Positions 5,584 to 61,088 of a stretch of 64,000 nt of DNA are shown piece after piece (positions within the stretch are counted from its first letter, which is position 1; each line of letters opens with the position of its first letter). The stretch lies in assembly GCA_017619755.1 (NCBI GenBank), contig JAFZRU010000067.1, positions 59,309 through 123,308 on the forward strand, in the 5' to 3' direction. The notes beneath the pieces were generated by a model. The model was not told where the DNA came from, ran no database searches, and was given only the letters and a program-made list of their open reading frames with translations. The DNA is from Prevotella sp. (GTDB lineage Bacteria; Bacteroidota; Bacteroidia; Bacteroidales; Bacteroidaceae). The translations under genes were made by a program, and so were the position numbers.

Positions 5584-5604
5584 GGTGTATGTTTAAAGTT
5601 GATG

Positions 5605-37028: not shown

Positions 37029-38696
37029 CTAAAAATTTGCCGTTTCAGAAAAAATGTGTAATTTTGCACCGCAAAAAGCCCAGATGGCGGAATCGGTAGA
37101 CGCGCTGGTCTCAAACACCAGTGGGGTGACCCGTGCCGGTTCGACCCCGGCTCTGGGTACTGAAGCGGGGAAAGAGTCAAATCTTTCCTCGTTTTCTTTT
37201 TTCGGCTCTCGCAACTCATTGGTTTGCTGATAGATTAAGTCAAGCACTTTGTTGTATCCATTGGTTCGATAATTTTTTCCGTCAAATTCGATTTTTTCAG
37301 GAAATATCGAACCAAGCAGTTTTATTTTTGTCTCTACGGGAGCGTCCCTAATAAAGCGTTCCATATTGTCTAACAGCGAGATAGAGTACCTTATCTTTGG
37401 TTCGACTTTACCACGGTTCGGGGTTGTCAGAATATCTATACGTTGTTGCAGTATCTCTATCTCTTTCTGATACCTTGTCACTGCTTCGTCTTTCTCTGTT
37501 TTGCTCAATTCACCGTCAATATACATATCTTTTGCTCGTTCAATACGTTTTTTATTTGTATTCAATTGCTCACGTAGTTTCTCTGCTTCCTTTCTATTCT
37601 CCACATTCTTCTCATCCCGAATATCAAATAATATCTTCTCATACAATTGTAGTATGGTTTCGTTTGGAGTGAGACATGACAAATACCTCGCAAAACTTTC
37701 ATTAACTTCTTCTGCACGTTTACGGATGTGTTTCCCATCGTGGCAACAATGGTAGTAAGCATATTTTCCACCATTGCCCTTGCTCTCACTACCTGTCAGA
37801 GCATGACCGCAGATAGGACATATTAAGAATTTACGTAAGAATAAATCGGGATGGATGAACTTATTACCTGTTAGTTTGGGATTTTTCTTCTTCCCGTCTA
37901 TAATGTCTTGAACACGATAGAACACCTCTTCTTTCACTATTGCTTCATGCTGTCCATTAACTATTTGTTCTTTGTCATCACCATAAGCAGGTACTCTGAC
38001 TTTTCCCATATAAAATGGATTTCTCAACATATCGAAAAAGGAACTTTCTGCTATTTGCGGACATAATCTTTTACGTATTCTGCATGGCGATTCTACTCCT
38101 TTTGCTACCTCTTCAAATATCTTCGAAATTAAAGGTGCAACATCTTTGTCTTTCTCCACCCATTTCTCTGTTCCTAATTCATTGTGGCGATTCTTGTAGC
38201 CTCTTGGTGCTCTATTACTACACTTTCCGTTTTTTAGAGTTTGGTGTATTCCGTCCCTTGTTCTTTTGCTGATTTTATTATCCTCGGCTTGTGCATTTCC
38301 ACAATAAACTCCAATTAGTGTTGACCAATCGGAGTTCTTTGTATCGTCACATTCAACAGGGTTTTCAATAGAGTTTACGGATACTCCTAATTCCTTGAAT
38401 TTGCGAATATAGGTAAAAGCGAATTCTGCATTTCTTGCAAATCTGTCCCATCTTAAGAATAGCAAGCCATCTACTTTCCCCTTGTTCTTCTTACAGAATT
38501 GATATATCGCTTTCATTTCGGGTCTTTTAAGATAATAGTCTTTTCCCGAAAAATCCTCATGGTAGCAGCCAATCACATTTAGGCTTGGTTTGTGGTTGCT
38601 GCAATACTTTCTTAACATTTCCTCTTGGTGAGCGAGACTTGTATTCTCTTTCTGCTCCTCCGAACTGACCCTACAATACAAAATAATATTCTTCAT
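37029..38696 (-). CDS. Large serine recombinase (integrase) reading through tRNA-Leu
   Basis: This 555-residue recombinase likely inserts and excises the element. The N-terminal resolvase domain has ILYCRVSSEEQKENTSLAHQ with the nucleophile Ser, and LLFLRWDRFARN. A recombinase domain follows (about 165-270, RTRDGIHQTLKNGKCSNRAPRGY), then a zinc ribbon (CPICGHALTG...HCCHDGKH, about 295-335) and a coiled-coil segment (about 360-430). The last ~45 residues (from VPRAGVEPARVTPLVFETSA) are the antisense translation of tRNA-Leu and its promoter, so the native stop was probably separated at integration. It follows the 138-residue gene by nine bases. Confidence 0.9.
   Translation of the reverse strand: MKNIILYCRVSSEEQKENTSLAHQEEMLRKYCSNHKPSLNVIGCYHEDFSGKDYYLKRPEMKAIYQFCKKNKGKVDGLLFLRWDRFARNAEFAFTYIRKFKELGVSVNSIENPVECDDTKNSDWSTLIGVYCGNAQAEDNKISKRTRDGIHQTLKNGKCSNRAPRGYKNRHNELGTEKWVEKDKDVAPLISKIFEEVAKGVESPCRIRKRLCPQIAESSFFDMLRNPFYMGKVRVPAYGDDKEQIVNGQHEAIVKEEVFYRVQDIIDGKKKNPKLTGNKFIHPDLFLRKFLICPICGHALTGSESKGNGGKYAYYHCCHDGKHIRKRAEEVNESFARYLSCLTPNETILQLYEKILFDIRDEKNVENRKEAEKLREQLNTNKKRIERAKDMYIDGELSKTEKDEAVTRYQKEIEILQQRIDILTTPNRGKVEPKIRYSISLLDNMERFIRDAPVETKIKLLGSIFPEKIEFDGKNYRTNGYNKVLDLIYQQTNELREPKKENEERFDSFPASVPRAGVEPARVTPLVFETSASTDSAIWAFCGAKLHIFSETANF
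37037..37066 (+). promoter_or_regulatory. Promoter for tRNA-Leu
   Basis: TTG (37037-37039), 19 bases and TAATTTTG (37059-37066) lie 11 bases ahead of the mature tRNA 5' end. It is a full match to the Bacteroidota promoter form. Confidence 0.7.
37078..37159 (+). tRNA. tRNA-Leu (anticodon CAA)
   Basis: The 82-base sequence folds as a cloverleaf with a long variable arm. The acceptor stem is GCCCAGA with TCTGGGT, the D arm holds GGCGGAATCGGTAGACGC, the anticodon stem CTGGT/ACCAG encloses loop CTCAAAC (anticodon CAA, reads UUG), and the T arm is GCCGG-TTCGACC-CCGGC. CCA is not encoded. It is the insertion target of the element to its right: the recombinase frame passes through it in antisense. 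Confidence 0.93.
37167..37202 (+). terminator. Terminator for tRNA-Leu inside the element's recombinase gene
   Basis: GGGGAAAGA (37167-37175) pairs with TCTTTCCTC (37182-37190) around a six-base loop, followed by GTTTTCTTTTTT. It lies eight bases after the tRNA. The same bases encode the last native residues of the recombinase on the opposite strand. Confidence 0.65.
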
Positions 38697-39526: not shown

Positions 39527-40168
39527 TTAAGAAATTTTTTGTTTTTCTGTTAATTTTTTAACTTTTCGTAGTGTATTGATGCTTGTGGAGGTGATTTTTT
39601 GCACATTTCGGAGAGAGTAACCTTTCTTCAACAAACGGATTTCTTCAGCATATTGTTCTCGCATTTGTTCCTCAGATTTGCGATACCCCACCTTGCGACC
39701 AACCATCCCACCATTGGCTCTAAAATTGTTATAACCGCTCTCAATACGCTCACGAATGGTCTTTCTTTCCATCCTTGCCACTTCTGCAAGAATCGTGATA
39801 AGGAATTGTGACATAGGATTGACTTTTCCATCTTCTGTCAATGTCTCGATATTGTAGTTTTGAATGTAAAGAGAGATACCCTCCTTATTCAGTAACTCGA
39901 TTACTTGAAGCACTTGCAGGGTGTCACGTCCCAGACGTGACAGTTCTGTGACCAATACCTTGCTTATATTATGTGTCTTCACATACTCCACCATTCTCAT
40001 CAGTTCTTTGCGCTCGGTATTCTTCTTCGCTCCACTGATTTTCTCCGCAAATGTGGCTTCCAACTTCCAACCCTTGCTGTTGGCTAAGGTTGTCAACTCG
40101 TTACTTTGTCTCTCATACTCTTGAAGAGACGTAGATACTCGGCAAAATGCTACGACTTGTGTATTCAT
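39527..40168 (-). CDS. Small serine recombinase (resolvase/invertase type)
   Basis: This 213-residue protein has the complete resolvase catalytic domain: VVAFCRVSTSLQEYERQ with the nucleophile Ser, KISGAKKNTERKEL, VTELSRLGRDTLQVL and the long E helix ILAEVARMERKTIRERI. A C-terminal helix-turn-helix follows (EIRLLKKGYSLRNVQKITSTSINTLRKV). Length and layout match DNA invertases and resolvases such as Hin or Tn3 family enzymes. It may resolve cointegrates or flip a segment of the element; no inverted target pair was found near it. It is separated from the large recombinase operon by its own promoter. Confidence 0.9.
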   Translation of the reverse strand: MNTQVVAFCRVSTSLQEYERQSNELTTLANSKGWKLEATFAEKISGAKKNTERKELMRMVEYVKTHNISKVLVTELSRLGRDTLQVLQVIELLNKEGISLYIQNYNIETLTEDGKVNPMSQFLITILAEVARMERKTIRERIESGYNNFRANGGMVGRKVGYRKSEEQMREQYAEEIRLLKKGYSLRNVQKITSTSINTLRKVKKLTEKQKIS

Positions 40169-40296
40169 ATTGATATAACTTTCTGATTACCTTTAGCTAA
40201 GATAAGAAAAATATCTGACAGGACCAAAATAATACAGCTAACTAAAGTTAATCAACAAGATTATTTTGAAGATAGTTTAGATTTGCCCAAAATAAA

Positions 40297-40331
40297 GGGC
40301 TTTCCCTGTGTGTCTACAAAAAGAAAGCCCC
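40297..40331 (-). terminator. Terminator of the NADAR operon
   Basis: On the minus strand GGGGCTTTC and GAAAGCCC (40297-40303 with 40324-40331) form the stem, followed by TTTATTTT. It lies about 20 bases after the last gene's stop. Confidence 0.65.
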
Positions 40332-40351
40332 ATTACGATAAAGCAATTTAA

Positions 40352-40852
40352 TCAATCTTCTGCCTCTTGTGTTTCCGATAACTCTATCACCTTGAAATAG
40401 TCCCAAATACACGGAATATCCTTTGAAAGGAAGTTTAGGAATCGTTCTATTTCATCAGTTTCTTTGCATGGGACATTGAAACCCTGTTTGTTCATGTATT
40501 CATTCAACTTGCCTTGAATGTACATTGTCTGCATTTCATTTCTGTGGTCTTCTTGTTCTCTGTGGTCTTTCATCGTTACCCACAAACATATTTCTGTCAC
40601 GTTGAATAATACCAATTGTTTTCCTGTTTTGGGGTGCTTGGTGTATTTGGCATATCCCCCTACGTCAAGTTTGATACGTCTTGCTTCTATGTCCTCATCA
40701 AATACTTTCTCTCTCAATCGTTCACGCAAAGGATGTCCATTGCCAAAGAATAACTCTGTTAGTAAATGAGAGGTCTTGTGAATACTGTATTCCAAAGGAA
40801 GTTCTTTGATATGAGAATCAAAGACACATCTTTTCATTCTGATTATCATCAT
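40352..40852 (-). CDS. Hypothetical protein, last gene of the NADAR operon
   Basis: This 166-residue protein is not recognised. It appears soluble, with SIHKTSHLLTELFFGNGHPL, a YTKHPKTGKQLVLFNVTEICLWV beta segment, and a C-terminal helical part containing MNKQGFNVPCKETDEIERF and SKDIPCIWDYFKVIEL. The C-terminal 60 residues resemble those of the upstream 141-residue protein (KEQGLNT... and DNVPVIDEHITI), so the two are probably distant paralogues. It follows that gene by seven bases and precedes a terminator. No function can be assigned. Confidence 0.55.
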   Translation of the reverse strand: MMIIRMKRCVFDSHIKELPLEYSIHKTSHLLTELFFGNGHPLRERLREKVFDEDIEARRIKLDVGGYAKYTKHPKTGKQLVLFNVTEICLWVTMKDHREQEDHRNEMQTMYIQGKLNEYMNKQGFNVPCKETDEIERFLNFLSKDIPCIWDYFKVIELSETQEAED

Positions 40853-40859
40853 TTTGGCT

Positions 40860-41285
40860 TCAATTTGTTTTGATTGTTATATGCTCGTCTATCACAGGAA
40901 CATTATCCCTCATCCACGCTACAAATGTACTCATCTCCTCTTGTGTGCTTGGGTGTATGGTATTCAGTCCTTGCTCCTTGAAATAGACTTCCATAACAGT
41001 CATCATTTCGTCATAGTTGCTTATCTCCTGTACCATCCATAAATCCTTTCTGTCTATGCACAAACGGAGGTTTGTAACTTCCATTGCCTCGTTCTGTTCT
41101 GCCATTAAGACAATACGAATGTTTGGAACAAGATGAAACTGATTCATAAGACGTTGAAACAACACACCATCTTTGTTCAAAAACTTTTTTGTCAATGCGT
41201 ATGATAGAGGGTTTATGTCTTCGTCAGTTTGAAGATGGTCGCTATCGTAGCCATCCTTGCATGATTTTTTTATAACTATCTTCAT
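40860..41285 (-). CDS. Hypothetical protein of the NADAR operon
   Basis: This 141-residue soluble protein is unrecognised. It has a beta-rich centre (LVPNIRIVLMAEQNEAMEV then TNLRLCIDRKDLWMVQEI) and a C-terminal segment EVYFKEQGLNTIHPSTQEEM followed by FVAWMRDNVPVIDEHITI, which resembles the C-terminus of the next gene. Its start codon overlaps the stop of the 75-residue gene as ATGA, showing tight translational coupling within the operon. Confidence 0.55.
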   Translation of the reverse strand: MKIVIKKSCKDGYDSDHLQTDEDINPLSYALTKKFLNKDGVLFQRLMNQFHLVPNIRIVLMAEQNEAMEVTNLRLCIDRKDLWMVQEISNYDEMMTVMEVYFKEQGLNTIHPSTQEEMSTFVAWMRDNVPVIDEHITIKTN

Positions 41286-41509
41286 ATTTCGTTAGTAATT
41301 TTGATTTTGTCTTGTCCGTCATACGGAATCCATACCAATTCTCTTGTCACTCCAATCAGATGGGTCTTGTTGAGTTTGGTCAGTGCTATTCTCTTTCGTT
41401 CTTGTGGTGTGGCAAACAGGAATGTACGCCACTCGTCATGGTCAAGACAGAGTATATAACAAGGTGGTGTCACTGCCTTATGCAATATACATCTTACAAT
41501 TATGGTCAT
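41282..41509 (-). CDS. Hypothetical protein (75 aa) of the NADAR operon
   Basis: This 75-residue protein is unrecognised and appears as a small beta-sheet fold: MTIIVRCILHKAVTPPCYI, LCLDHDEWRTFLFATPQ, then THLIGVTRELVWIPYDG. It is 12 bases after the 147-residue gene and overlaps the next gene by four bases. Its position in the middle of a strictly packed operon is the main reason to accept it as real. Confidence 0.5.
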   Translation of the reverse strand: MTIIVRCILHKAVTPPCYILCLDHDEWRTFLFATPQERKRIALTKLNKTHLIGVTRELVWIPYDGQDKIKITNEI

Positions 41510-41521
41510 GTCATGATTCTT

Positions 41522-41965
41522 TTATATAGTGTATCTGTAATTGGGTATGATGCTATAACCATCTGTATCCTTTTGCCAACTGCAACTCGATTGGTTATTC
41601 AAGTTCCACATAGTGATAGTGAACTCGTAGTTGTCAGCATAACGTGGGCTTCGGCATGGCTCTGTCATGAAAGAATATAACAACTCCTCAAAATTATATT
41701 TGAAAATGTAGTTTTCTTTGTTTGGGTGTTTGTAATAGCGATTTGACTGCAAGCAAATGGCAGTATCAGCCTCGGTATATATGTCTTTGACGTGGAAGTG
41801 TGGTTCTTGGCATTCGTCATCTGTTTGAACATATACCTCATATTCGCTTGCTCTGCCAAAGAAGCCGATACGAGCAATGTCTCCATGTTCTCGCTGTTTC
41901 ATGTTGGGCTTTTCGATTATGTTGTTATTTATCTTAATCATTGCTTTTCCTTGTGTTACGGACAA
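41522..41965 (-). CDS. Hypothetical protein (147 aa) of the NADAR operon
   Basis: This 147-residue protein is unrecognised. A central segment IARIGFFGRASEYEVYVQTD and CQEPHFHVKDIYTEADTAIC, with a His-Phe-His pair, recalls small cupin-like or DUF4160-like folds, but the likeness is weak. It overlaps the end of the 363-residue gene by 32 bases; an internal Met (MIKINNNIIEK, residue 9, or MKQREHGD) could be the true start and would shorten the overlap. Confidence 0.5.
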   Translation of the reverse strand: MSVTQGKAMIKINNNIIEKPNMKQREHGDIARIGFFGRASEYEVYVQTDDECQEPHFHVKDIYTEADTAICLQSNRYYKHPNKENYIFKYNFEELLYSFMTEPCRSPRYADNYEFTITMWNLNNQSSCSWQKDTDGYSIIPNYRYTI

Positions 41966-43025
41966 ACTGTTCTATCACATTGAAAGTGATGTCACTTTCA
42001 TCGGGGAATGTCTCAAGGACTTTGTTAAACTTGAAACAACCGATTTCGATTTCCAACTCTTTAATACGCTTGGTTAGAGGCATAAGTTTCTTTTGGTACG
42101 TTATGTTATCTAAACGTCCGCTTTTCAGTTCCGCTTTCAAACCTCGTTTCTGTTCTTTCAGTTGCTCGATTTCCATTGTGGCATTTGTTTCCAATGCTTC
42201 AAACTCTGCGTAGAACTTACGGATTTTGTCTTCATTATATCTTATCAGAGTGTCCTTGTACTTATTGTACCACATATCACGCTCTTCTTTGATTTGCTCT
42301 ATGCGCCTGTTGAAGACTTCTATCTCATGGGTCATGTACTGCATTTCTATTGTGTGAGCATAATCCATGTTATTATCTTCTTCTTGGTCTAATATGTCAA
42401 GCACTTCTTGTAGCGTGTATGCTTGATAGAGTTGCTTCGCCTCAGTATAGCGGTTGTTGATGCGTGTAAATGGGCCCCAATGTGCATTAAATGGTGATAA
42501 GGAAACAATCTCTGTCTCCCCATCCTCACGCACAGCAGCACATTTGTTTGCACCACTTAAAGGACTACCTGCAAGGTGATAGACAAGACTTTTCCGTCCT
42601 TTGCTATCTGTCCTCATCGCTCCTTGTACAATCGACCACCATTCAAGATAGATGCCCAACGTGGGATTTCTGAAACCTGAGATTCCGGTGTAAGCCAAAC
42701 CACTCTGAATAGGTATGCGACATAAAAACATACGGCTATCGCTCATAATGCGTTCCCTGTGTGACAACAGGTAAAAAGCGTTTTTGATGAAAAGTTGCTT
42801 TTGTTCCTCTGCCTCTTTTGTTTTTGTAGGCATAGGTTGCAACTTCTTCGCCCCAACGCTCAAATATTGTCCTGTTGTGTCTAATTCTAAATGGTCTTCA
42901 TCTATCTTGTCAGGTGCTTGTGCTGCAAGTGGATAGCACTCAAGCATACGACCATCCCAAAGAATGATTTTGTTGTGAGGGAACACCTCTCGTTCCCTCT
43001 TTTCAAATTCTGCGTAGATACCCAT
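41934..43025 (-). CDS. Hypothetical coiled-coil protein (363 aa) of the NADAR operon
   Basis: This 363-residue protein has two parts. Residues 1-215 look globular (KIILWDGRMLECYPLAAQAP, IPIQSGLAYTGISGFRNPTL, YHLAGSPLSGANKCAAV, FNAHWGPFTRINNRY). Residues about 225-345 are a long coiled coil (HEIEVFNRRIEQIKEERDMW, EFEALETNATMEIEQLKEQK). I do not recognise the globular part; its GSPLSGANKCAAV and HWGPF motifs may be functional. It is the largest non-NADAR member of the operon and starts three bases after the second NADAR gene. It may be the effector or scaffold of the set. Confidence 0.55.
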   Translation of the reverse strand: MGIYAEFEKREREVFPHNKIILWDGRMLECYPLAAQAPDKIDEDHLELDTTGQYLSVGAKKLQPMPTKTKEAEEQKQLFIKNAFYLLSHRERIMSDSRMFLCRIPIQSGLAYTGISGFRNPTLGIYLEWWSIVQGAMRTDSKGRKSLVYHLAGSPLSGANKCAAVREDGETEIVSLSPFNAHWGPFTRINNRYTEAKQLYQAYTLQEVLDILDQEEDNNMDYAHTIEMQYMTHEIEVFNRRIEQIKEERDMWYNKYKDTLIRYNEDKIRKFYAEFEALETNATMEIEQLKEQKRGLKAELKSGRLDNITYQKKLMPLTKRIKELEIEIGCFKFNKVLETFPDESDITFNVIEQFVRNTRKSND

Positions 43026-43028
43026 AAC

Positions 43029-43769
43029 TTAACAATTTTCAAAAGTTAATAATTCCCCTAAAATGTAGATGTTTGAACGTCTGAGGAGGTCATAATCTAT
43101 CTGTGGTTCTGTCCCCTCTCGGATGCAGTCTCGACATAGCATAAGGATTTTGCCTATGTTGTTTTGCCCTTTCCAAACCCCTATATCGTTGATTTTGTTG
43201 GTCTCGATATTGATGATATAGTCTCGCTCCTTGCGTTTTAAGTCTTTGTGACGTTCCATAAGTACAGTTGCAAGGTTGGCTCGTTTGTTTTCCAACTCCC
43301 AATTCTCACAGCCCCATATATCGGCACTATCCCATTTGTCGGTTGTGGTGTTTTCTATGAGAATAGCATCTTGGGGTATTTGAAGTAAAAGTTTACGGAA
43401 GTCTTCATTGCCCTTGCATTTCTGCCACACACAGTAAATCATCCATTGCAGACGGAAATCGGCAAAATCGGGTCTGACAAATTTACGAAAACGAGATTTG
43501 CCGAATCGTTTTGCTCCAAATCCGCTTGTGTACGACAAAAGGCACTCTTGGATAAAACGATGTTCGTCTGTGTTGTTTGACCACTCGCCACACAGGTACA
43601 AACGCTCGCTGTCCTTCCAAACTCTGCCTCCACACTTAAATGGAAATCCCCCTGCCATATTGGAGATACAGATGTTAATACCGTTCACCATGTCTTTCGC
43701 ATATTTGAAAGACCAAACTTGTGGGGAGGCAATATAAGCCTCCTCACGACCTAAATAATAGTTCTTCAT
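43029..43769 (-). CDS. NADAR-domain protein, second of a tandem pair
   Basis: This 246-residue protein matches the NADAR fold (YbiA family) in order: ISNMAGGFPFKCGGRVWKDS and LYLCGEW at the N-terminus, FRLQWMIYCVWQKCKGNEDF then RKLLLQIPQDAILIENTTTD, ADIWGCENW, and the C-terminal GVWKGQNNIGKILMLCRDCI. In E. coli YbiA the aligned parts are LRALLLATAPAKLVEHT, YWG and GKGKNRLGYLLMELRE. NADAR proteins act on N-glycosidic bonds of ADP-ribose-like substrates; some remove ADP-ribose from guanine. The insert of about 50 residues between the WGC and KGQN motifs is unusual. It overlaps the first copy by four bases. Confidence 0.7.
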   Translation of the reverse strand: MKNYYLGREEAYIASPQVWSFKYAKDMVNGINICISNMAGGFPFKCGGRVWKDSERLYLCGEWSNNTDEHRFIQECLLSYTSGFGAKRFGKSRFRKFVRPDFADFRLQWMIYCVWQKCKGNEDFRKLLLQIPQDAILIENTTTDKWDSADIWGCENWELENKRANLATVLMERHKDLKRKERDYIINIETNKINDIGVWKGQNNIGKILMLCRDCIREGTEPQIDYDLLRRSNIYILGELLTFENC

Positions 43770-44530
43770 GCTGCCTTAACGTATTGGTTAAATGTTAGTT
43801 CCTTGCCTAAGAGGTTAATGTGTACTCCCTGTAATAAAGCATGGTCAATAGGCGGTTCTGCGCCCTGTTCAAGTGCCTGTTTGCAAGCCATGAGTATCTT
43901 GCCCATGATGTTCTTCCCCTTGAAAACACCTATGGTCGACCACTCGCCAAGACGCATCTTGTCCTGTTCACGTTTGATAGCCGCTTTACACTTGCCCCGT
44001 GCTTTCATGTCCTTACGCAAAGCGTCCAATCGCTTCTTCAACTCGTCATTACGACAACCCCAAATCGTAGCCGTGCGCCCCTTCTGAAACGTGCTATCCT
44101 CTATGATGACTGCATCTTTGGGGAACGACAAAAGCAAGTTGCGGAAAGCCTCGCTGCCAAGGCACTTCTGCCAAACAACATACACCATCCACTGCGCGTT
44201 AAACCGATTCCAATCAGAGCGTTTGAGGCTTTCATGGGGCTTGTAAATGCATCGCTTCGCCTGTAATCCGTTGTTGTTTAAGTGCAATTCACGCTGAATA
44301 GCAAGGTGTTGTGAAGAACCCGAAGAGAAAGCCCCTGCTATATAGGCACACCCGCTGTTATTGAAGTGTACCCCCTGTAAATCAAAGCCGAAGCCACGAA
44401 CCATATTGCCAAGTGACAACAACAAACCCTGCCTCACGTCATACCCATGACGGAAAGCAAAGCAATTCAGTGAAGAAGCATCGTATGCCTCCTCACGAAC
44501 CAAAAAGCCATAAAAATCTTGTAATTTCAT
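43766..44530 (-). CDS. NADAR-domain protein, first of a tandem pair
   Basis: This 254-residue protein is the operon's first gene. It carries LGNMVRGFGFDLQGVHFNNS, IAGAFSSGSSQHLAIQRELH, NAQWMVYVVWQKCLGSEAFR with NLLLSFPKDAVIIEDSTFQK, IWGCRND, and IGVFKGKNIMGKILMACKQAL, which follow the NADAR pattern seen in YbiA. A charged insert (KRLDALRKDMKARGKCKAAIK) separates the last two motifs, as in the second copy. The two share roughly a third of residues and so arose by duplication. The N-terminal segment (VREEAYDASSLNCFAFRHGY) is also shared. It likely hydrolyses an ADP-ribosyl or nucleotide N-glycosidic bond; the substrate is unknown. Confidence 0.7.
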   Translation of the reverse strand: MKLQDFYGFLVREEAYDASSLNCFAFRHGYDVRQGLLLSLGNMVRGFGFDLQGVHFNNSGCAYIAGAFSSGSSQHLAIQRELHLNNNGLQAKRCIYKPHESLKRSDWNRFNAQWMVYVVWQKCLGSEAFRNLLLSFPKDAVIIEDSTFQKGRTATIWGCRNDELKKRLDALRKDMKARGKCKAAIKREQDKMRLGEWSTIGVFKGKNIMGKILMACKQALEQGAEPPIDHALLQGVHINLLGKELTFNQYVKAA

Positions 44531-44594
44531 AAATTTATATTTTAATTAAATGAATATTAAATACTTAATTCACTAATTCGCATCGATTTTCCCA

Positions 44595-44618
44595 CCGTGG
44601 CCCTTATGAAAGGCTCGG
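44595..44618 (-). promoter_or_regulatory. Leader hairpin of the NADAR operon
   Basis: In the 155-base leader, CCGAGCCTT (minus strand) pairs with AAGGGCCACGG around TCAT, with flanking CCAA/TGGG able to extend it. There is no T-run. It may affect translation or mRNA stability; function unknown. Confidence 0.4.
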
Positions 44619-44693
44619 TTGGAGCTGTACTTAAACAGTCTCTTGATGCCTATTATCTCAAAGAACTAACGCTAATCTCCCGAAAAGCGAACA

Positions 44694-44724
44694 CAAAATT
44701 AGGAAAAATATTTGAGATGGCCAA
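44694..44724 (-). promoter_or_regulatory. Promoter of the NADAR operon
   Basis: On the minus strand TTG (44722-44724), 20 bases and TAATTTTG (44694-44701) fit the consensus exactly. The first start codon is 164 bases downstream of the -7 element. Confidence 0.7.
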
Positions 44725-45410: not shown

Positions 45411-46970
45411 TCATTTATCCACATTCTGTTCTCTCTTATAGGAAAATTCTCGTTGGATTGCTCCAACGGAAATCTCTTGAAGTTGATTCAAACGGCTTTT
45501 CAAATCCATGCCTTTTAGGGGGTCGTAACTTTCTTTCTCTATTTTCTGTGCTAATTGGTATCTGATTTTTGCAACATAGCAATTATTTTCAGCTGCTTTT
45601 ATTGGAGTTCCATGTTCTGAGTAATTTATGCCAACACAGAAATTACAAAAGCCACAATATTTCTTTTTTCCACATTCTTCATAATCATTTACTTTCAAAT
45701 TGCGCCACCACTTTAATAAATCACTTTTGGAGATGATTTCATGTACCGATTGATTTTGAAGATTTCCGAAAGACAAATGGAACGCACAACAAGGAATTAG
45801 GTTGCCATTGGGTGTAACACAAAAAGTATGGTAACCTGCTTTGCATGCATTACGTTCCATGTCTATCTTTGTTTCACCATACTTTTCAATATCCTTGCCC
45901 ACATACATTACAGTATTGGGGTCTCTGAGTACAATTTCCAATTGTTCGGGCGACAATCTAAGATACTTACTCACACATCTATCTCCTTCTATAGAATCAC
46001 TAACGTTCAATTCATATTGAACGGGGATGCCATACTTCTTCCCAATGTCAGTAACTGTATAATAAGATTTTAGATTGGGCTTGATGATGCAGCATTTTAT
46101 TGTCATTGGAATGGATAATTCATGAAGGTTCTCAAGAGCAGACATTGTTTTTTTTAATGAGCCGTTGACCCTTGTAATTCGGTCGTGGTCTTTGTCTATA
46201 CCACTGTAGATAGAAAGACAAACTCGATGAGGAAAGTATTTAGCAAGTAGTCTTTCCTTATGTAAAATACCCATTCCATTGGTAAAAATGTCGATGGCTA
46301 TGTCTTTACTGTAAAGATAATCTATAATTTCCCATATATCTGAATATGAGAAAGGGTCGCCCCCTGAAAGCAGAACTTTCGTTAATCCTTCATCATACAA
46401 CTCATCTATTATCCTTTTATATTCGCTTATTTCAAGTGTTCCTGTTTTGCTTCTTAGGTTCTCTTCTTGGTCATTCCTGCTTGCTCCAATATTATAGCAA
46501 TGAATACACTTTTCACTACAATTATAGGTTAATTCAAACATGACATTCGTAATACCCCCTACTCTCGCTTCATATAAAGATTCTGCATCATCTATTTCAG
46601 AATGACTATCAATAACCTTAGCTCTTATCGGCAACGGGTTCTCGTCATATTTCCTACGACACGCTTTTCTGTAATCTGCTATTTCTGCCTTTTCTATTTG
46701 TTTTTCTGCTAATAATCCTAACAGACATAGTTCGTTGGCAAACGGAATGAGACTTTTTTCTGATATATTGGTTGCATTGGATAATACCTCCAAGCTAATT
46801 CTTTTATTCTTTGGGATGGAAAGGAATACGCCAACAACATCTGCTGAGTATTCTTCAAAGAAGTAAGAAACTCCTGTGATTAGATTGTAATAAATGGCTG
46901 CATGAGCAATTTGATTATATCTACCGCAAGTCCATTCGGGCCGATAATATATAGGATTTTCTTTATTCAT
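45411..46970 (-). CDS. Radical SAM/SPASM peptide-modifying enzyme with N-terminal PqqD-like domain
   Basis: This 519-residue protein has three parts. Residues about 20-105 (AAIYYNLITGVSYFFEEYSA, ISEKSLIPFANELCLLGLL) resemble the PqqD/RRE peptide-binding winged helix. Residues about 140-360 are the radical SAM barrel, with the 4Fe-4S motif CSEKCIHC (CxxxCxxC), KVLLSGGDPFSYSD and DIFTNGMG. The C-terminus is a SPASM domain with at least seven cysteines (GNLIPCCAFHLSFGN, CGKKKYCGFCNFC, NNCYVAKIRY) for extra Fe-S clusters. Such enzymes form thioether, C-C or other links in ribosomally made peptides. Its start overlaps the upstream spermidine-synthase-like gene by four bases. Confidence 0.85.
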   Translation of the reverse strand: MNKENPIYYRPEWTCGRYNQIAHAAIYYNLITGVSYFFEEYSADVVGVFLSIPKNKRISLEVLSNATNISEKSLIPFANELCLLGLLAEKQIEKAEIADYRKACRRKYDENPLPIRAKVIDSHSEIDDAESLYEARVGGITNVMFELTYNCSEKCIHCYNIGASRNDQEENLRSKTGTLEISEYKRIIDELYDEGLTKVLLSGGDPFSYSDIWEIIDYLYSKDIAIDIFTNGMGILHKERLLAKYFPHRVCLSIYSGIDKDHDRITRVNGSLKKTMSALENLHELSIPMTIKCCIIKPNLKSYYTVTDIGKKYGIPVQYELNVSDSIEGDRCVSKYLRLSPEQLEIVLRDPNTVMYVGKDIEKYGETKIDMERNACKAGYHTFCVTPNGNLIPCCAFHLSFGNLQNQSVHEIISKSDLLKWWRNLKVNDYEECGKKKYCGFCNFCVGINYSEHGTPIKAAENNCYVAKIRYQLAQKIEKESYDPLKGMDLKSRLNQLQEISVGAIQREFSYKREQNVDK

Positions 46971-47695
46971 TTTGATTCAATGATGTTTAGATGAGAAAGA
47001 GCATTTAAGTTACCGTTAAGAAAAATAACATATCGGGAGTTTTCATCTTCCTCATCGGTCATTATGGCAAAAAGCTTAAAATATGTGCTTCCTAATAGAG
47101 TGAGATTCCTACATTCGTCAATAGATGATTTATATATGTTGAATGCAACAAGACAATTCCGTTTTGTATGTTCGGATAAGCATTTCAGGAAAGAATGTGT
47201 ATGCGCTTGCTTTGGTATAACACTGCCAACAAATAGGTCAACATAGATAAAATCATATTTCTTGTTAGTCTTTTCTATAAAAGAAAAGGCATCGTCTTTG
47301 ATGATATTCAGATTGTTTGTTGGTAGATTAATCAGAAAATACTTTTGGGTTAGAAAGATGATTTCCTCACAATACTCTACGGTGTCAATAACAACGGTGT
47401 TGTTGAATTTCTTTATGATATATCTTGGAATTGTACAGCATCCCCCACCAAGAACGAGGGCATCTTCAATATGATTTGATTGGGTAAAAGAAAGCAATAG
47501 TCTCTGAATAGGCATATATATAGGTTGATATACAGAAGCGTCTGTGTAGATACATGAATAGCCTACATCTCCATTCCTTAGAGCGAGCATGTTACCCATC
47601 TTAACAACAGACAACATACCATCATTCGTACTAAGACGTTCTAATACCTCCATCATCTTTTGACAATGGAGAGGATTATCACATTTTTGTCCCAT
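46967..47695 (-). CDS. Spermidine-synthase-like / SAM-dependent transferase
   Basis: This 242-residue protein has the spermidine synthase core: DALVLGGGCCTIPRYIIKKF (SAM-binding glycine loop), VVIDTVEYCEEIIFLTQKYF (acidic residue for the ribose), IIKDDAFSFIEKTNKKYDFI then YVDLFVGSVIPKQAHTHSFL. It transfers either an aminopropyl or a methyl group; the sequence alone does not decide. In this operon it may modify the same peptide as the radical SAM protein. The first residues (MGQKCDNPLHCQKMM) have two cysteines and overlap the upstream small gene by 43 bases; a start at MMEVLERLS is possible. Confidence 0.7.
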   Translation of the reverse strand: MGQKCDNPLHCQKMMEVLERLSTNDGMLSVVKMGNMLALRNGDVGYSCIYTDASVYQPIYMPIQRLLLSFTQSNHIEDALVLGGGCCTIPRYIIKKFNNTVVIDTVEYCEEIIFLTQKYFLINLPTNNLNIIKDDAFSFIEKTNKKYDFIYVDLFVGSVIPKQAHTHSFLKCLSEHTKRNCLVAFNIYKSSIDECRNLTLLGSTYFKLFAIMTDEEDENSRYVIFLNGNLNALSHLNIIESK

Positions 47696-54120: not shown

Positions 54121-56043
54121 TTAATCATAATATCCAAGGTTTTTTAATGCATCTAAGACTCTTTGGCCATCACTAAAGCCAGCAGCCTTTGCTTTCTTTG
54201 CATAATTTTCAGCTGCACTAAATTCATTGTTTTGCAAATAATATTGCGCAAGAGGACCATATGCTGGTGCATAGCCTTGATTGGCCATCTTCTGCACTGT
54301 TTGGTAATCTCCTTTGGAAAGTGCATTCTTGAGAGCCTGAGGACTGAGCACTAATTTATTTACTTGTGATTCTTCCTTGACCAGTTCATCCTTATGGATA
54401 ACAGGAGCTTCGAATTTTTGGGTTTCCTGTTTTGAGGTTGGGGCATCATCTGCTTTATTGTCATTTGTTGGCTGTTTTTGTTTTTCTTTTTTACCCTCAA
54501 CTTCAGATTTTGTTTCTATAATCAATTCTTTCTTTTTAGGCTCAACTAAAGGTATCCTTGTGTCCACTGTTTCCTTTTGAGGGGCAACTATTGTTGTGTC
54601 GTTGTCTGGTGGATATGACGAAATAGGCCCCTCTGGTTTTTCTCCAACTTTTCTAGCAATTAAACCTATAGCAATGGGTATCAAGAACGTACCTGCTACA
54701 ATCAAAATATCTTTTAAACCTATTTTACGGAAACTATATGGGAAAACAGTGAGAGCATCTTCTCCTTTGAAAGATTGGTAAAGTGCAACAACACACCATA
54801 TAATAACGATTACTCCAAGAATATTGAAACTTATAGTTAAAAAACTAATTATCCAAGATATTAAGCAGATGGTCAAGAAACCCTGACTCAAAAACATGGC
54901 ATTAGGCTTCCTCTTCAATATCGCATGGTGTGCATATACAGCCAAGCCCAAAAATAATGATGGCTCGATCATATACAATAGTTTTTGAGAGCCAGACAAC
55001 TGATGGGTATTGCTCAGTATAAGGTATAGGAACGATACGGCAAATGTCAGTATACCACCCCATAATATCATTTTTGAGAGCCTTCCTAAATCGGAATAGT
55101 AATCTATATCAATTTGGTCTGGTTTATCCTCATCCCATTGTATTTCCTCATCGTAAGTGTTTTCATCAACATTCGCTTCAATTTCGGGATTAAGAGCAGA
55201 AAATTGTTCTGGTCGAAGATTCCAGGTTGCTTTGGCTGGAACACCTTTTATGATGGCGTCAGAAAAGTCTTCCAGTTGCTGTGCTGTCGGACGGTTCCAC
55301 GTTTCTTTGGCAAGGCAGGATTGCATGACCATATTTAGATCTTTCGACCATTTCCTGTCAAGTGATGGCATCTCTGCGCCATTTTTTTGCATGCCACCAC
55401 CCAGTCCGCTGAAGGGTAATTCTCCTGTTGCAAGTTCATAAATAGAAGCACCCAATGACCAAATGTCGGAAGCCTTTACTGGGGTAGGGTCGCTATCGAA
55501 TCTTTCAGGGCCCATATAGGCTGTTGCACCAGCTCCGACAGCTCTTTTGGATTGCCTTCGCATTGTGGATCGAACTTTCTTGCTGATACCGAAGTCTGTT
55601 ATGAGGAAGTTTCCCTGATCCATTAAAATATTGTCTGGCTTGATGTCCTGATGCACGATTGGTTCTGCCAAACTGTGTAGTTTTTTTAGACCAGCTGAGA
55701 CATCATGAATAAACTTCCATATCGTATATTCATCTGTCTTTCCAGCAAGTTGGGAAGAAGGCCCATCCGGACAATACTTCATGACAAGGAAAGGATGTTG
55801 TTCCCATACATCGAAGTAGTTAGTTGTCAAGAGGTTGGGATGGGAAAGCCCTTCAGTGGTGATATATTCACTTTTGAATTCTTCAAGACCTCTGGGATCA
55901 AGTGAGATGTAGATTTTAATGGCAATGTCGCTATTCAGCATATTGTCATGAGCCAGCCACACCTCTCCAAAAGTTCCTCTACCCTTGAACTCTTTGAGAA
56001 TGTACCTGTCTTTTACTATTGTTCCTGTTGTAATATTGCTCAT
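54121..56043 (-). CDS. Membrane Ser/Thr protein kinase with C-terminal Sel1/TPR-like unit
   Basis: This 640-residue protein starts with a Hanks-type kinase domain (about 13-270): GRGTFGEVWLA (glycine loop), DIAIKIYIS (Lys), IVHQDIKPDNILM (catalytic loop with HQD in place of HRD), ITDFGISKK (DFG) and a GPER in place of APE. Residues about 325-460 hold four or five membrane helices (ILWGGILTFAVSFLYLILS and others). A Glu/Lys-rich exported linker and a final repeat unit (NALSKGDYQTVQKMANQGYA, YYLQNNEFSAAENYAKKAKA) follow. It phosphorylates cytoplasmic targets under control of an outside domain. HQD keeps the catalytic Asp, so it should be active. Confidence 0.88.
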   Translation of the reverse strand: MSNITTGTIVKDRYILKEFKGRGTFGEVWLAHDNMLNSDIAIKIYISLDPRGLEEFKSEYITTEGLSHPNLLTTNYFDVWEQHPFLVMKYCPDGPSSQLAGKTDEYTIWKFIHDVSAGLKKLHSLAEPIVHQDIKPDNILMDQGNFLITDFGISKKVRSTMRRQSKRAVGAGATAYMGPERFDSDPTPVKASDIWSLGASIYELATGELPFSGLGGGMQKNGAEMPSLDRKWSKDLNMVMQSCLAKETWNRPTAQQLEDFSDAIIKGVPAKATWNLRPEQFSALNPEIEANVDENTYDEEIQWDEDKPDQIDIDYYSDLGRLSKMILWGGILTFAVSFLYLILSNTHQLSGSQKLLYMIEPSLFLGLAVYAHHAILKRKPNAMFLSQGFLTICLISWIISFLTISFNILGVIVIIWCVVALYQSFKGEDALTVFPYSFRKIGLKDILIVAGTFLIPIAIGLIARKVGEKPEGPISSYPPDNDTTIVAPQKETVDTRIPLVEPKKKELIIETKSEVEGKKEKQKQPTNDNKADDAPTSKQETQKFEAPVIHKDELVKEESQVNKLVLSPQALKNALSKGDYQTVQKMANQGYAPAYGPLAQYYLQNNEFSAAENYAKKAKAAGFSDGQRVLDALKNLGYYD

Positions 56044-56061
56044 ATAGGTGGAGAATTAAGT

Positions 56062-57435
56062 TTAATACTCTTTTTTGTTGGGATTTTGAGGAATGTCATT
56101 TTTCTGTCTTAATGAGTTGTCAATGGGCGTAAGAACGGATGCGTCATCTGGCATCCCAACTTCTTCAATTTCAGTAAGACCCTCAGAGTGGGTGTCTTTT
56201 TCTTTTTTCCCGTTTTGTTCTTCAATCTTCCTCGTGATGCTCTTTTTAGATTCAGACTTGCTGTTCTCTATGGCTTCTTCGGACATCTTCGGAACAATAG
56301 GAGCAGGTTCTTCTTGAATAATCTCTGATTTTATCGAGTCGCGGTCGATTGTCAGAGAGTCATCTGGAGAGATGCCCATAGGTGGTTCGGATTGTTTGGG
56401 ATGGGGTTTCTTGAAAAACAAGTAAGCACACAGGCATGCTAAAACCATGATGATGGCAAGCAATAAAGCAATTAATGCTTTCGTCCATTTTCTTGTGGGT
56501 TGAGGTTGCGATGCATTTGTTTGAATGATGTTGGGACTTTCAGGACCTTCAAGAATCTGACAGAGAATAGCTGTCACATTATCATACCATCCACTTTTTT
56601 CGGCTGAAGCCCACAGGGCTTCCCGGCATTCTTTCATAGAAGAGGTGTTGGCACGAATGATATCTTCTATACATCCTTCGGGATATAGTTGTCCATTGGA
56701 ATCATAAGTCTTCCTGTCTCTTAATGCTCCTGATAATCCATCACTGCATAACAATATGATATCTCCGCGACCTATTTCTACTGTTTTCGATTCGGGGTGG
56801 GCTTCTTTTGTCGGGTCTCCCAAGCTGCGTGTAACAATGTTGTTCTGTGGGTGGTCAAACGTTTGGTCATAAGTCAATAAGCCTTTATTGACCAATTCTT
56901 GTACATATGAATGGTCTCTTGACAGTAATCTTATTCCAGCTTTGTCGTTATAGAGGTAAGCTCTGCTGTCACCACACCAACTTATCGTTAACTCGTTGTT
57001 GAACAACCAACCCACGATGATGGTGCTTCCCATTCCTTCGTGTGCCACATTTTCTTTGGTGTGGCGTTTGATTGATTTGTCTGCAGCTTTTATTGCCTTC
57101 TCAATATACTTTCGGCGGCTATCAGAATCTTTGGTTATATCCTCCGTGAGTTTGTCTTGGGCAAAATACTCTTTTATAGTATCAACCGCTATTTGAGATG
57201 CTATTTCTCCAGCATTCATACCCCCCATGCCATCAGCAACCACCATCAGCATACCTTTCTTCGACAATTCAATGGCTTCATTTTGGTCTGCTTTATTTGT
57301 GACGTCATCACTGAGGTCGTCATCTATGTAGAAATTGTCTTCGTTGCCACTACGAGGAGCATCTAAAGCGTATTTGCCTGCCGCATCAGTAAATGCTACA
57401 AGCCGATATTTTATATTCATTGTTTTTCTTCTCAT
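56062..57435 (-). CDS. PP2C-type protein phosphatase with membrane anchor
   Basis: This 457-residue protein has an N-terminal PP2C (PPM) domain (about 15-285) with the metal-binding motifs SGNEDNFYIDDD, VVADGMGGMNAGEIAS, WCGDSRAYLY, LLCSDGLSGALRD and SGWYDNVTAILCQ. A membrane helix follows near residues 320-342 (ALIALLLAIIMVLACLCAYL), then a Ser/Glu/Lys-rich exported tail. It removes phosphate from Ser/Thr and most likely reverses the two kinases in the operon. A second Met (MNIKYRLVAF, five residues in) is a possible start. Confidence 0.9.
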   Translation of the reverse strand: MRRKTMNIKYRLVAFTDAAGKYALDAPRSGNEDNFYIDDDLSDDVTNKADQNEAIELSKKGMLMVVADGMGGMNAGEIASQIAVDTIKEYFAQDKLTEDITKDSDSRRKYIEKAIKAADKSIKRHTKENVAHEGMGSTIIVGWLFNNELTISWCGDSRAYLYNDKAGIRLLSRDHSYVQELVNKGLLTYDQTFDHPQNNIVTRSLGDPTKEAHPESKTVEIGRGDIILLCSDGLSGALRDRKTYDSNGQLYPEGCIEDIIRANTSSMKECREALWASAEKSGWYDNVTAILCQILEGPESPNIIQTNASQPQPTRKWTKALIALLLAIIMVLACLCAYLFFKKPHPKQSEPPMGISPDDSLTIDRDSIKSEIIQEEPAPIVPKMSEEAIENSKSESKKSITRKIEEQNGKKEKDTHSEGLTEIEEVGMPDDASVLTPIDNSLRQKNDIPQNPNKKEY

Positions 57436-57473
57436 AATGCTTTAAGTTCTATATCTTGATTCGTTTTGTCGGG

Positions 57474-58262
57474 TTAATCCTCATTCTGTATTAACGTCAA
57501 CTTATGTTTGGATTGAGGTTTCCTAAAAAAGGGGCATTCCAATCTTGGAAAATCATCATAAATAGAAATGACCCCCGTCAGTTTGAAAGCAATTTGTCCT
57601 ACTCTCTCGATTTGTGATATGATGTAGAACCCTCCCATAATGTCGCCCTCAATATTCGGGTGCTCTACCTTAATAATATGGTTTTCATCATTGATTTCAA
57701 TCTCTTTGTATATTGGGTATAATGTGAAATCTGTTGATTTCGCATCGTTTTTGGAATGAACTGCCCAAACCACCCATCCTTTCTTTTTGCCAGGCATACT
57801 GTCAATCTCCAATCCTCTTTGCATGAGAATGCTGTCTTCGTAAAGGCACAATGAACTTTCAGATATTTTTGCAGTGCTTTGTTCGTTTAAAAATAGTTGA
57901 ATGCCTTCTTTTGCCAGTATGGACGACTTTTTTACGAGAGGAATGTATTTGCCTTGATACTCTTTGAAATCTTTGTCTATCTTCCAAGGTGCCAACAATT
58001 CTTCATTGAAAATGATACCTTTGGCGGTGGATATGCCAACGAACGAAAGCATGTTGAAATAGTCTTTTCCACCCCGTCCAAAATGCTTTTTCGAAACAGA
58101 ATCCATCAACTCATATTTTTGCTGGATGAGCAGACAGGAGCCTTCCAAGGCATCCTCAACAAGACGTTGGTTGTCTGACTTGAATGAAAATAATCTTTGG
58201 GCACATAGATGATTGCCTACAGAGATGACCAACAACAGTATAAAAATCCTCATTCTTTTCAT
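57474..58262 (-). CDS. Exported protein of unknown function in the kinase/FHA island
   Basis: This 262-residue protein has a signal peptide (MKRMRIFILLLVISVGNHLCAQ) and a soluble domain: LVEDALEGSCLLIQQKYELM, FGRGGKDYFNMLSFVGISTA, GWVVWAVHSKNDAKSTDFTL, IEGDIMGGFYIISQIERVGQ. The small-fold layout is not recognised. Its ATG overlaps the stop of the protease gene by one base (TAATG), which points to joint translation with the FHA protease. It may be the protease's substrate or regulator in the periplasm. Confidence 0.6.
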   Translation of the reverse strand: MKRMRIFILLLVISVGNHLCAQRLFSFKSDNQRLVEDALEGSCLLIQQKYELMDSVSKKHFGRGGKDYFNMLSFVGISTAKGIIFNEELLAPWKIDKDFKEYQGKYIPLVKKSSILAKEGIQLFLNEQSTAKISESSLCLYEDSILMQRGLEIDSMPGKKKGWVVWAVHSKNDAKSTDFTLYPIYKEIEINDENHIIKVEHPNIEGDIMGGFYIISQIERVGQIAFKLTGVISIYDDFPRLECPFFRKPQSKHKLTLIQNED

Positions 58263-59770
58263 TATCTTATCGCACTAATTGGAACAATAAATCCTGCATT
58301 TCGTCCAGCTATGGCGGACACGATGCCTATTACTATCATATTACCATTCTCATCAGTATAGAACGCAGGACCACCAGAGCACCCTTGTTCATAATTGGTG
58401 TCCGTAGTTAAAATAAACCCTCGCTGCAATCCGTCAACAGAGACGATGCCGCTGCCATAAATGGGGTTGATTTGGGTAGGCGAATTCGCTCCAAGTCCCA
58501 AAGGGAACCCTAAAACAGTTAGTTTGGTACCCCTCTCAAGGTTATTGCTTCTGCTTGCTGAAAATTTCAAACCTCCTGCTTTGTTGACCTTGGCATAGGC
58601 AAAGTCTGTGCCATCATCAGTGGCAAGTGATATCTTATAGCCTTCTTCTGCGGTTTTCACCCTGTCTGAGGAACGGTTGCAGTGGAATTGTGTGCTAGAA
58701 AGACTTAGTTTTTGGCCTGAAGAAGAGATTGCAACGAAATGTGCCACTACTTTACCGCCGTTGTTGGCTATGCAATTGAGCTGAGCCAAATTCTCATTGG
58801 TGTCAGAACCATTCATCCAAAAATACCAACTTTCAACAACATGTCTGGCTGTGACAAATGTGCCGTTATCAAGAAGGAAACCTGTACCCGACCAACTTGG
58901 CACATCATTGTGTGAGCAGTCCAATGTTCCAGACTCTCCATTGGGAAGGGTTACATCAATGCTGGTAGCATATATGAAATACACGTTGGGCAAGCAAGCG
59001 TTGATGGCTGAATTATCGATGGCTCCCGAGCTAACAGCAATACTTCTTTGTTGCTGCCTCACTTTACCAAATTGTTTTTTAAGATTGCCAATTTCTCCTT
59101 TCAGTTTTTCTGCATGTTTGTTTGCTTCGTTCAACAGTGAGTCTTGAACAGCCATAGCTCTCTGATGGCGTTCCTCATTTTCTGCGATTAGTGCTGACTG
59201 TTCTTTGTTTTTTTGATAAAGTTGATTTAAATAGTATACACCAGCGCCACACCCTAAAAGCAATATGCAGGCTAATATAGCGATAGCGGTTTTGTAAGGA
59301 CGCAGAGCTTGTTGCCTAAACAAATTCAGACGTGCCGTCATGCCGATATTTCTCACCAGTCCTTTGTCGCCGGTCGGTTCAATAAAGCCAAGTTTAGGAC
59401 CATTGACAGAGAGCTGGATTTCATCCCCATTTTGAAGACACCACTCACTTTCTATTCTTCTCCCATTTAAGAATGTAGAGTTGGTTTGGGATAATTGGAT
59501 TAATTTCCAATTGTTTTTTTCTCGGATGATGGCTGCATGTCGTCTGCTGACAGTAGAAAAATCCTCATCGAAACGAACTTGGCAACGAGGGTCTCTGCCT
59601 ATTTCTATTTCGTCTACAATAATTCTTTGAGACTCACCTGCCTGATGGTATTTGGACGAAACTTTGTGCTCCAGTATATAATACCGTCTGCCGCTCTTTC
59701 CAAAGACTGATTTCACACCTGCGCCAATGGAACCCGATACTGTTCTTTTATAATTTGTTGGTTGTGCCAT
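58262..59770 (-). CDS. Transmembrane FHA-domain / trypsin-like serine protease fusion
   Basis: The start MAQPTNYKRTVSGSIGAGVK (ATG at 59768-59770) gives 502 residues; an upstream in-frame stretch would overlap the kinase gene. An FHA domain (about 50-130: EIEIGRDPRCQVRFDEDFST, VSRRHAAIIREKN, NSTFLNGRRIE) recognises phosphothreonine. One membrane helix (161-181) and a coiled coil (about 183-245) follow, then a trypsin-fold protease (about 260-500) with the triad His310 (FVTARHVV), Asp389 (DGTDFAYAKV) and Ser465 (GCSGGPAF). The FHA part should face the cytoplasm and the protease the periplasm, so phosphorylation could gate proteolysis across the membrane. Confidence 0.85.
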   Translation of the reverse strand: MAQPTNYKRTVSGSIGAGVKSVFGKSGRRYYILEHKVSSKYHQAGESQRIIVDEIEIGRDPRCQVRFDEDFSTVSRRHAAIIREKNNWKLIQLSQTNSTFLNGRRIESEWCLQNGDEIQLSVNGPKLGFIEPTGDKGLVRNIGMTARLNLFRQQALRPYKTAIAILACILLLGCGAGVYYLNQLYQKNKEQSALIAENEERHQRAMAVQDSLLNEANKHAEKLKGEIGNLKKQFGKVRQQQRSIAVSSGAIDNSAINACLPNVYFIYATSIDVTLPNGESGTLDCSHNDVPSWSGTGFLLDNGTFVTARHVVESWYFWMNGSDTNENLAQLNCIANNGGKVVAHFVAISSSGQKLSLSSTQFHCNRSSDRVKTAEEGYKISLATDDGTDFAYAKVNKAGGLKFSASRSNNLERGTKLTVLGFPLGLGANSPTQINPIYGSGIVSVDGLQRGFILTTDTNYEQGCSGGPAFYTDENGNMIVIGIVSAIAGRNAGFIVPISAIR

Positions 59771-59775
59771 AATAA

Positions 59776-61080: not shown

Positions 61081-61088
61081 ATGTTCAA

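Follow-up and report, generated by a model that had tools for sequence, protein, structure and literature searches.

An operon of seven packed genes, the first two of which encode NADAR-fold proteins, lies on a mobile island of a Prevotella sp. (assembly GCA_017619755.1), and its leader RNA appears to fold as the aptamer of an S-adenosylmethionine (SAM) riboswitch. The analysed stretch, hereafter the window, comprises 64,000 nucleotides (nt) of contig JAFZRU010000067.1 (positions 59,309 to 123,308), and the operon runs on its minus strand from 44530 to 40352 in the order N1-N2-orf3-orf4-orf5-orf6-orf7. We read it as a mobile, SAM-controlled accessory operon that may serve as a conflict module on SAM depletion, and we give this reading as a whole a probability of about 0.5.

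The proposed mechanism begins with the leader RNA, which would fold into a SAM-I/IV aptamer, a step well supported by the sequence. With SAM bound, the loop of helix P3 would pair with the region of the N1 start codon and block translation, as complementarity in four lineages suggests; the result would be a translational OFF switch, leaving the operon ON when SAM is scarce. By their profiles and fold, the first two products are NADAR-fold proteins, whose altered active-site residues probably do not allow the hydrolysis of ADP-ribosyl-guanine carried out by NADARs linked to DarT; they may cleave the N-glycosidic bond of some nucleotide or nucleoside. The product of orf3 would be their core partner. 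In the last step, which is the weakest, a depletion of SAM, such as phages that encode SAM-degrading enzymes might bring about, would arm the module.

The leader aptamer and the N1 start codon

The Rfam covariance model of the SAM-I/IV riboswitch aptamer (RF01725) matched the operon leader at 44551-44654 (minus strand) with 59.3 bits, against a gathering score of 41.1 and with E 3.1e-7 for the whole window. A SAM-I/IV aptamer is also present at one related locus (L001), and the sequence of another (L002) starts within the aptamer, at the end of its contig. Here and below, the order was surveyed in 393 genomes and is taken to be Bacteroidales. Thirty sequences were aligned, namely those of the window, L001, four leaders of orf3 homologues and 24 other RF01725 matches in the order, leaving aside four of the 30 over-cut-off matches (G136, G298, G221 and G018), the first aptamer of locus L043 and the matches below threshold. 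Covariation in this alignment scored 0.419, compared with 0.149 when shuffled and at most 0.085 for slid versions; 95.9% of the pairs were standard and 11 of the 18 changed on both sides. Helices P1, P2 and P3 are kept by covariation, and the SAM-I/IV core is invariant.

That the leader RNA folds as a SAM-I/IV aptamer is well supported by these sequence comparisons, and we infer from the class of the RNA that it binds SAM and with what sign. The SAM-I/IV variant of SAM riboswitches has been described (PMC2864571), and in SAM-IV RNA, with which SAM-I/IV shares its ligand core, a pseudoknot joins the P3 side to the 3′ end (PMC6890682). With its score above the cut-off, covarying P1-P3, invariant core and a partner of the P3 loop lying downstream, the RNA of the window resembles RF01725; it differs in that the loop is proposed to pair with the very region of the start codon, and in that accessory genes would be controlled.

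The P3 loop segment UUUCAUAAG (44603-44611, minus strand) is proposed to pair with the N1 start codon region UUUAUGAAA (44525-44533, minus strand). Within these, TTTCATAAG of the loop is complementary to TTTATGAAA, which contains the start codon of N1, and a helix of nine pairs as good as that over this codon arose in 2 of 5000 shuffles (P 0.012 with shuffled tails). The corresponding loop/start pairs are TCATAG/CTATGA in L002, CATAAT/ATTATG in the orf3 leaders and CATAAC/GTTATG in genome G081; the bases just 5′ of the AUG vary between lineages, and the P3 loop varies to match. On this complementarity we base the proposal of a PK-2 pseudoknot between the P3 loop and the 3′ side. No terminator was found between the aptamer and N1, so translation is the likelier level of control, and high SAM would be expected to switch the operon OFF, because metK stands under aptamers of the same family. 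Taken jointly, the aptamer and the block of the start codon are highly probable on this evidence; that the operon is ON at low SAM is probable.

Across the order, RF01725 gave a match in 34 of the 393 genomes, over the cut-off in 26, with 30 over-cut-off matches in total. When open reading frames (ORFs) were read by eye, metK was the first gene after the aptamer in G022, G136 and G303 and the second in G158, metH-like genes followed four sub-threshold matches, and the first ORF behind the G018 aptamer was tgt-like; the aptamers of G200, G311, G365 and G015 are among those without a clear downstream gene. Ten first ORFs behind aptamers were scanned with Pfam, and none matched at E <=0.01. Restriction-subunit-like and nucleosidase-like ORFs near aptamers were dropped, as they do not lie downstream. 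The SAM riboswitch in the leader, together with the metK and metH-like genes behind the other aptamers, speaks for the main rival explanation, in which the task of the operon under SAM shortage would be the salvage or detoxification of a nucleoside, either modified or derived from SAM. For reasons given below, we consider this somewhat unlikely.

The NADAR proteins and their relatives

N1 (43766-44530, 254 residues) and N2 (43029-43769, 246 residues), both on the minus strand, had been taken in a preliminary description of this DNA for two NADAR-fold proteins, and this assignment holds. N2 matches the NADAR profile PF08719 with 41.3 bits (cut-off 35.1; E 2.5e-10), N1 stays under that cut-off with 27.1 bits (E 5.9e-6) and is 39% identical to N2, and a YbiA-like fold places them in the NADAR superfamily; the motifs quoted at the time, KGQNNIGKILM, KGKNIMGKILM and WGC, are present. 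Compared with E. coli YbiA (2B3W) and the P. nicotianae NADAR (8BAU), N1 and N2 have a helical insert of ~40 residues ahead of the GxN motif, and a Lys of those proteins is replaced.

In the NADAR of E. coli C7, residues E88, K95 and D171 matter and K95 is essential; the equivalents in the P. nicotianae protein are E43, K50 and E125 (PMC11543638). Placed by a weak profile alignment to YbiA and by the equal Glu-to-Lys spacing of seven residues, the Lys position (K95/K50) is occupied by Glu in all four N2 and by Ala in all four N1 sequences, and the Glu position (E88/E43) is kept in 4/4 N2 and 3/4 N1, being Gly in the N1 of the window. Seven sequences extend to the second acid, and each has Glu there; the eighth, the N1 of L001, is a fragment. 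Judging from these residues, ordinary ADP-ribosyl-guanine hydrolysis by N1 and N2 is unlikely, because the essential Lys is replaced. The altered active sites provide a test for possible substrates of the superfamily beyond ADP-ribose adducts.

This bears on the role first suggested for the operon, that of an ADP-ribose-based defence or toxin-antitoxin system of the DarT-NADAR or DS32 kind. The NADAR fold speaks for such a role, as does the report that ADP-ribosyl-guanine was hydrolysed in vitro by each of four NADAR types from E. coli and its phage (PMC11125620). The best NCBIfam match of both proteins is the anti-phage NADAR DS32_2 (NF053876; E 1.8e-17 for N2 and 1.5e-11 for N1), but with 63.0 and 43.7 bits they fall far under its cut-off of 240. 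DarT1-NADAR toxin-antitoxin systems share with the present genes the NADAR fold and the small operon; here, however, the essential Lys is missing, and no ADP-ribosyltransferase (ART) family was recognised in orf3-orf7 at E up to 1 with Pfam or NCBIfam, a very divergent ART being possible. The same scans gave no DarT-like toxin among the partners. With Glu or Ala at the Lys position in all eight sequences and no ART recognised, the case for ADP-ribose is weakened, and we hold this explanation to be quite improbable.

The DS32 system, a pair of PRTase-CE (DS32_1, NF053875) and NADAR, likewise has its NADAR in a small operon and is the nearest curated family of both N1 and N2. Apart from the low scores, the present operon differs in its two tandem NADARs, its SAM riboswitch and the Glu or Ala at the Lys position, which is Arg in the DS32_2 relative of locus L025. 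Neither is a PRTase-CE partner found: none of orf3-orf7 matches NF053875, and the Prevotella genome gave 0 matches in a search in which no control genome matched, though the model matches L025 at 328.3 bits (cut-off 250). That locus (G013:C32, 4266-5919) holds a DS32 pair of its own, with a NADAR of 235.4 bits (cut-off 240). In the survey, DS32_2 matched at E <=1e-8 in 16 of the 393 genomes, in none over the cut-off; eight of the matching regions were fetched, and ORFs were listed for G013, G363 and G120. The name DS32 would fit the numbering of the DefensePredictor systems, the main text of whose paper has a single mention of NADAR domains and none of DS-32 (PMC13092281). A PADLOC match of N2 to PDC-M42C was weak (E 0.0026) and was set aside.

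The loss of the Lys in N1 and N2 also agrees with the metabolic explanation introduced above, under which they would be N-glycosidases on a pyrophosphate-free substrate, and the change of the phosphate-binding Lys to Glu would suit a positively charged ligand. NADARs have been described as N-glycosidases on riboflavin intermediates (PMC9503650); with the profile of that activity (TIGR02464), the two proteins scored 40.4 and 32.9 bits, under the cut-off of 73.7.

The orf3 family and a possible conflict module

The third gene, orf3 (41934-43025, minus strand), encodes 363 residues with a conserved N-terminal domain and long C-terminal helices. Its relatives in the survey were confined to its own genome, G343 and G087, and the 26 genomes of the genus of G343 added G412 and G415, each of which has two copies in tandem. 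The aptamer lies 16 nt upstream of all five full-length orf3 copies outside the NADAR operon; the short copy of G087 had no aptamer in the RF01725 search of the order. No relative of N1 or N2 was seen in the regions fetched around the stand-alone copies. Since the same aptamer precedes its homologues also where NADAR genes are absent, orf3 looks like the riboswitch-linked core of the operon, and the SAM signal, if real, would offer a way into the orf3 family and the Pfam-less accessory genes behind the same aptamers. AlphaFold2 with three sequences gave a predicted local distance difference test (pLDDT) score of 51.7 and no usable fold beyond the C-terminal helices, and searches of Pfam and PDB profiles with nine homologues returned weak, mostly coiled-coil-type matches (best E 0.001 and 0.016).

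In G415, the second orf3 copy overlaps a gene for a SprT-like protease, and G412 has the same order. At L042:8596-9788 and L043:3838-5031, the second copy is followed by the SprT-like protease gene and by that of a 233-residue protein, which has no Pfam family (scanned in L042). Further on in L043, two large ORFs read as AddAB-like, the one of 915 residues without a Pfam match.

Relatives of the whole operon come from Paludibacteraceae and Muribaculaceae (loci L001-L003). The preliminary description had proposed looking for the same seven-gene order in other genomes; partial sets of the genes are present at two of these loci. L002 has N1, N2, orf3, a fusion of orf4 and orf6, and orf7, without orf5, and L001 has a broken N1 followed by N2 and orf3, without orf4-orf7. 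Queried with N2, the 393 genomes yielded only its own genome, the DS32-type gene of G013 and, in G120, a short piece; the same query had no match among plasmid or phage proteins, and viral contigs searched with N2, orf3 or their alignments gave no relative. This rarity speaks against a metabolic role, as do the mobility of the operon, its decay in L001 and the fact that no SAM gene was noticed by eye beside the stand-alone orf3 copies.

We favour a conflict module in view of the mobility, rarity and patchy occurrence of the operon and of its closeness to an anti-phage NADAR, and also because counter-defence by a phage enzyme that degrades SAM has been documented (PMC7877911). Should the SAM logic hold, a mobile operon is silenced at its start codon by the methyl donor of the cell and released as SAM falls, which would link SAM-degrading enzymes of phages directly to an inducible response. 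A defence role as such is put forward tentatively. It is rather unlikely, in our estimate, that there is a Bacteroidales class of mobile conflict operons reading SAM by riboswitch, in which destruction of SAM by a phage or rival would free the start codon and let silent proteins be made at once, without transcription control; the effectors would be two NADAR-fold N-glycosidases in which the phosphate-binding site has been remodelled to take a new substrate, with the orf3 family as the common core. Among the matches listed in a search of titles and abstracts of the open-licence literature, there was no report of SAM-I/IV control of NADAR or defence genes.

Several observations weigh against a SAM-controlled conflict module. 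Metabolic genes, too, are under riboswitches of the SAM-I/IV class, so that control by SAM does not in itself imply defence, and no defence family was recognised in orf3-orf7 with Pfam, NCBIfam or, for all but orf5, PADLOC. The operon is decaying in L001, the L003 genome has N1 and N2 apart together with broken N2 pieces, and the L003 locus, whose stretch starts after the first 1378 bases of the contig, showed no SAM-I/IV aptamer. As to the start codon, the test took in seven of 32 leaders, chosen after a scan of the 32 and without correction for that choice, and one of the cases, G201, was unsupportive (1163 of 5000 shuffles as good). In the scan, for which the L002 stretch falls short of its start codon, only six of the 32 helices had a shuffle P <0.05. 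The best partner lay 8-18 nt into the tail examined in 9/32 leaders, closer to the usual place of the pseudoknot, most single rows being non-significant.

Operon architecture, the island and other aptamers

The seven ORFs had been described from the outset as one complete transcription unit with a promoter and a terminator, and the sequence bears this out. The four further genes, all on the minus strand, are orf4 (41522-41941), orf5 (41282-41509, 75 residues), which has no relative among the compared loci, orf6 (40860-41285, 141 residues) and orf7 (40352-40852, 166 residues). orf4 was listed from a TTG at 41965, and the in-frame ATG at 41941 is its likelier start; counted from there, three junctions of the operon overlap (by 4, 8 and 4 nt) and three are gapped (by 3, 12 and 7 nt). 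Scans with Pfam and NCBIfam yielded no known family for any of the five partners, as already noted at that time, and a PADLOC match of orf4 to PtuA was weak (E 0.007).

The probable promoter (44694-44724, minus strand) consists of TTGG upstream of TAATTTTG at 44701-44694, the latter being what we take to be a -7 box of the Bacteroidetes consensus, and L001 shares both elements. By itself, TANNTTTG is frequent across the window (54 matches, 34 expected). On the 3′ side of orf7, the last gene, 40290-40340 (minus strand) holds a terminator-like hairpin and a U-rich tract; the hairpin has -19.2 kcal/mol and z -4.56, with 0/200 shuffles as good, though a terminator scan of the window did not list it. 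The ratio of non-synonymous to synonymous substitution (dN/dS) was 0.08-0.22 in the seven operon comparisons with finite dS, two further ones being saturated: against L002, 0.19 for N1, 0.10 for N2, 0.22 for orf4, 0.13 for orf6 and 0.08 for orf7, and against L001, 0.08 for N2 and 0.22 for orf3. Because these values are low, the operon genes, orf5 aside for want of a relative to compare, are taken as truly coding and not as chance ORFs.

The mobile element claimed earlier is recognisable as an island at tRNA-Leu(CAA) (37078-37160, plus strand), which is its left boundary and lies near the operon also in L001 and L002. G+C is ~38% in the island and ~56% to its left, and in many relatives of the genus similarity stops at the 3′ end of the tRNA gene (37160-37161). 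A large serine recombinase (37029-38696, minus strand; 555 residues, Resolvase and Recombinase over the cut-off, Zn ribbon weak) stands beside this boundary, with the same site in other genomes, in agreement with integration by a serine recombinase; at L002:5254-6941, the large recombinase next to the tRNA appears as two ORFs. A small serine recombinase (Resolvase; 39527-40168, minus strand; 213 residues) is 94% identical to that beside the same operon in L002, with a dN/dS of 0.06. The contig ends with the window and the far end of the island lies beyond it; a single copy of the attachment core was found within the window, and no second.

These features also bear on the explanation that orf3 and its partners serve transfer, maintenance or exclusion of an integrative element, SAM control timing this to host physiology. 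The same tRNA near the operon in L001, L002 and the window, the same small recombinase adjoining it in L002 and the window, and SAM-I/IV aptamers on other viral-collection contigs are in its favour. Yet the operon remnant of L001 has no recombinase between it and the tRNA, and around the stand-alone orf3 copies no integrase was noticed by eye, in partial ranges and without a family scan, transposase-like ORFs being near in L036. We regard a role in upkeep of the element as highly improbable.

Kinase, phosphatase, FHA and protease genes are also present on the island, and an ORF near the contig end matches half of a relaxase profile. At 54121-61826, there are two Ser/Thr kinases, which match the PADLOC models PD-T4-6 and mad6, a PP2C phosphatase, FHA proteins and an FHA-trypsin protein. 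Upstream of the operon on the same strand, 45411-47695 holds genes for a Radical SAM/SPASM protein and for a protein that matches the spermine synthase family.

SAM-I/IV aptamers occur on six viral-collection contigs, on five of them over the Rfam cut-off. A family of ~90 residues without a Pfam match stands directly behind such aptamers both in the order and on viral-collection contigs, with members at L126:288-563, L129:1618-1878 and in L088, L091 and L082, as the first ORF after the aptamer. In the aptamer of L126 (118-250), a locus that also has an ArdC anti-restriction gene, additional sequence seems to separate P3 from the 3′ strand of P1 by comparison with L128, and the score is under the cut-off. 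On the viral-collection contig of L127, one aptamer (4670-4770) precedes a gene of the N-formylglutamate amidohydrolase family and a second (5482-5590) precedes an ORF of 135 residues without a Pfam family. L090 (G268:C9) has two tandem SAM-I/IV aptamers ~40 nt apart (2312-2545), followed by a first ORF without a Pfam family, and a third aptamer ~1.4 kb downstream (3941-4033).

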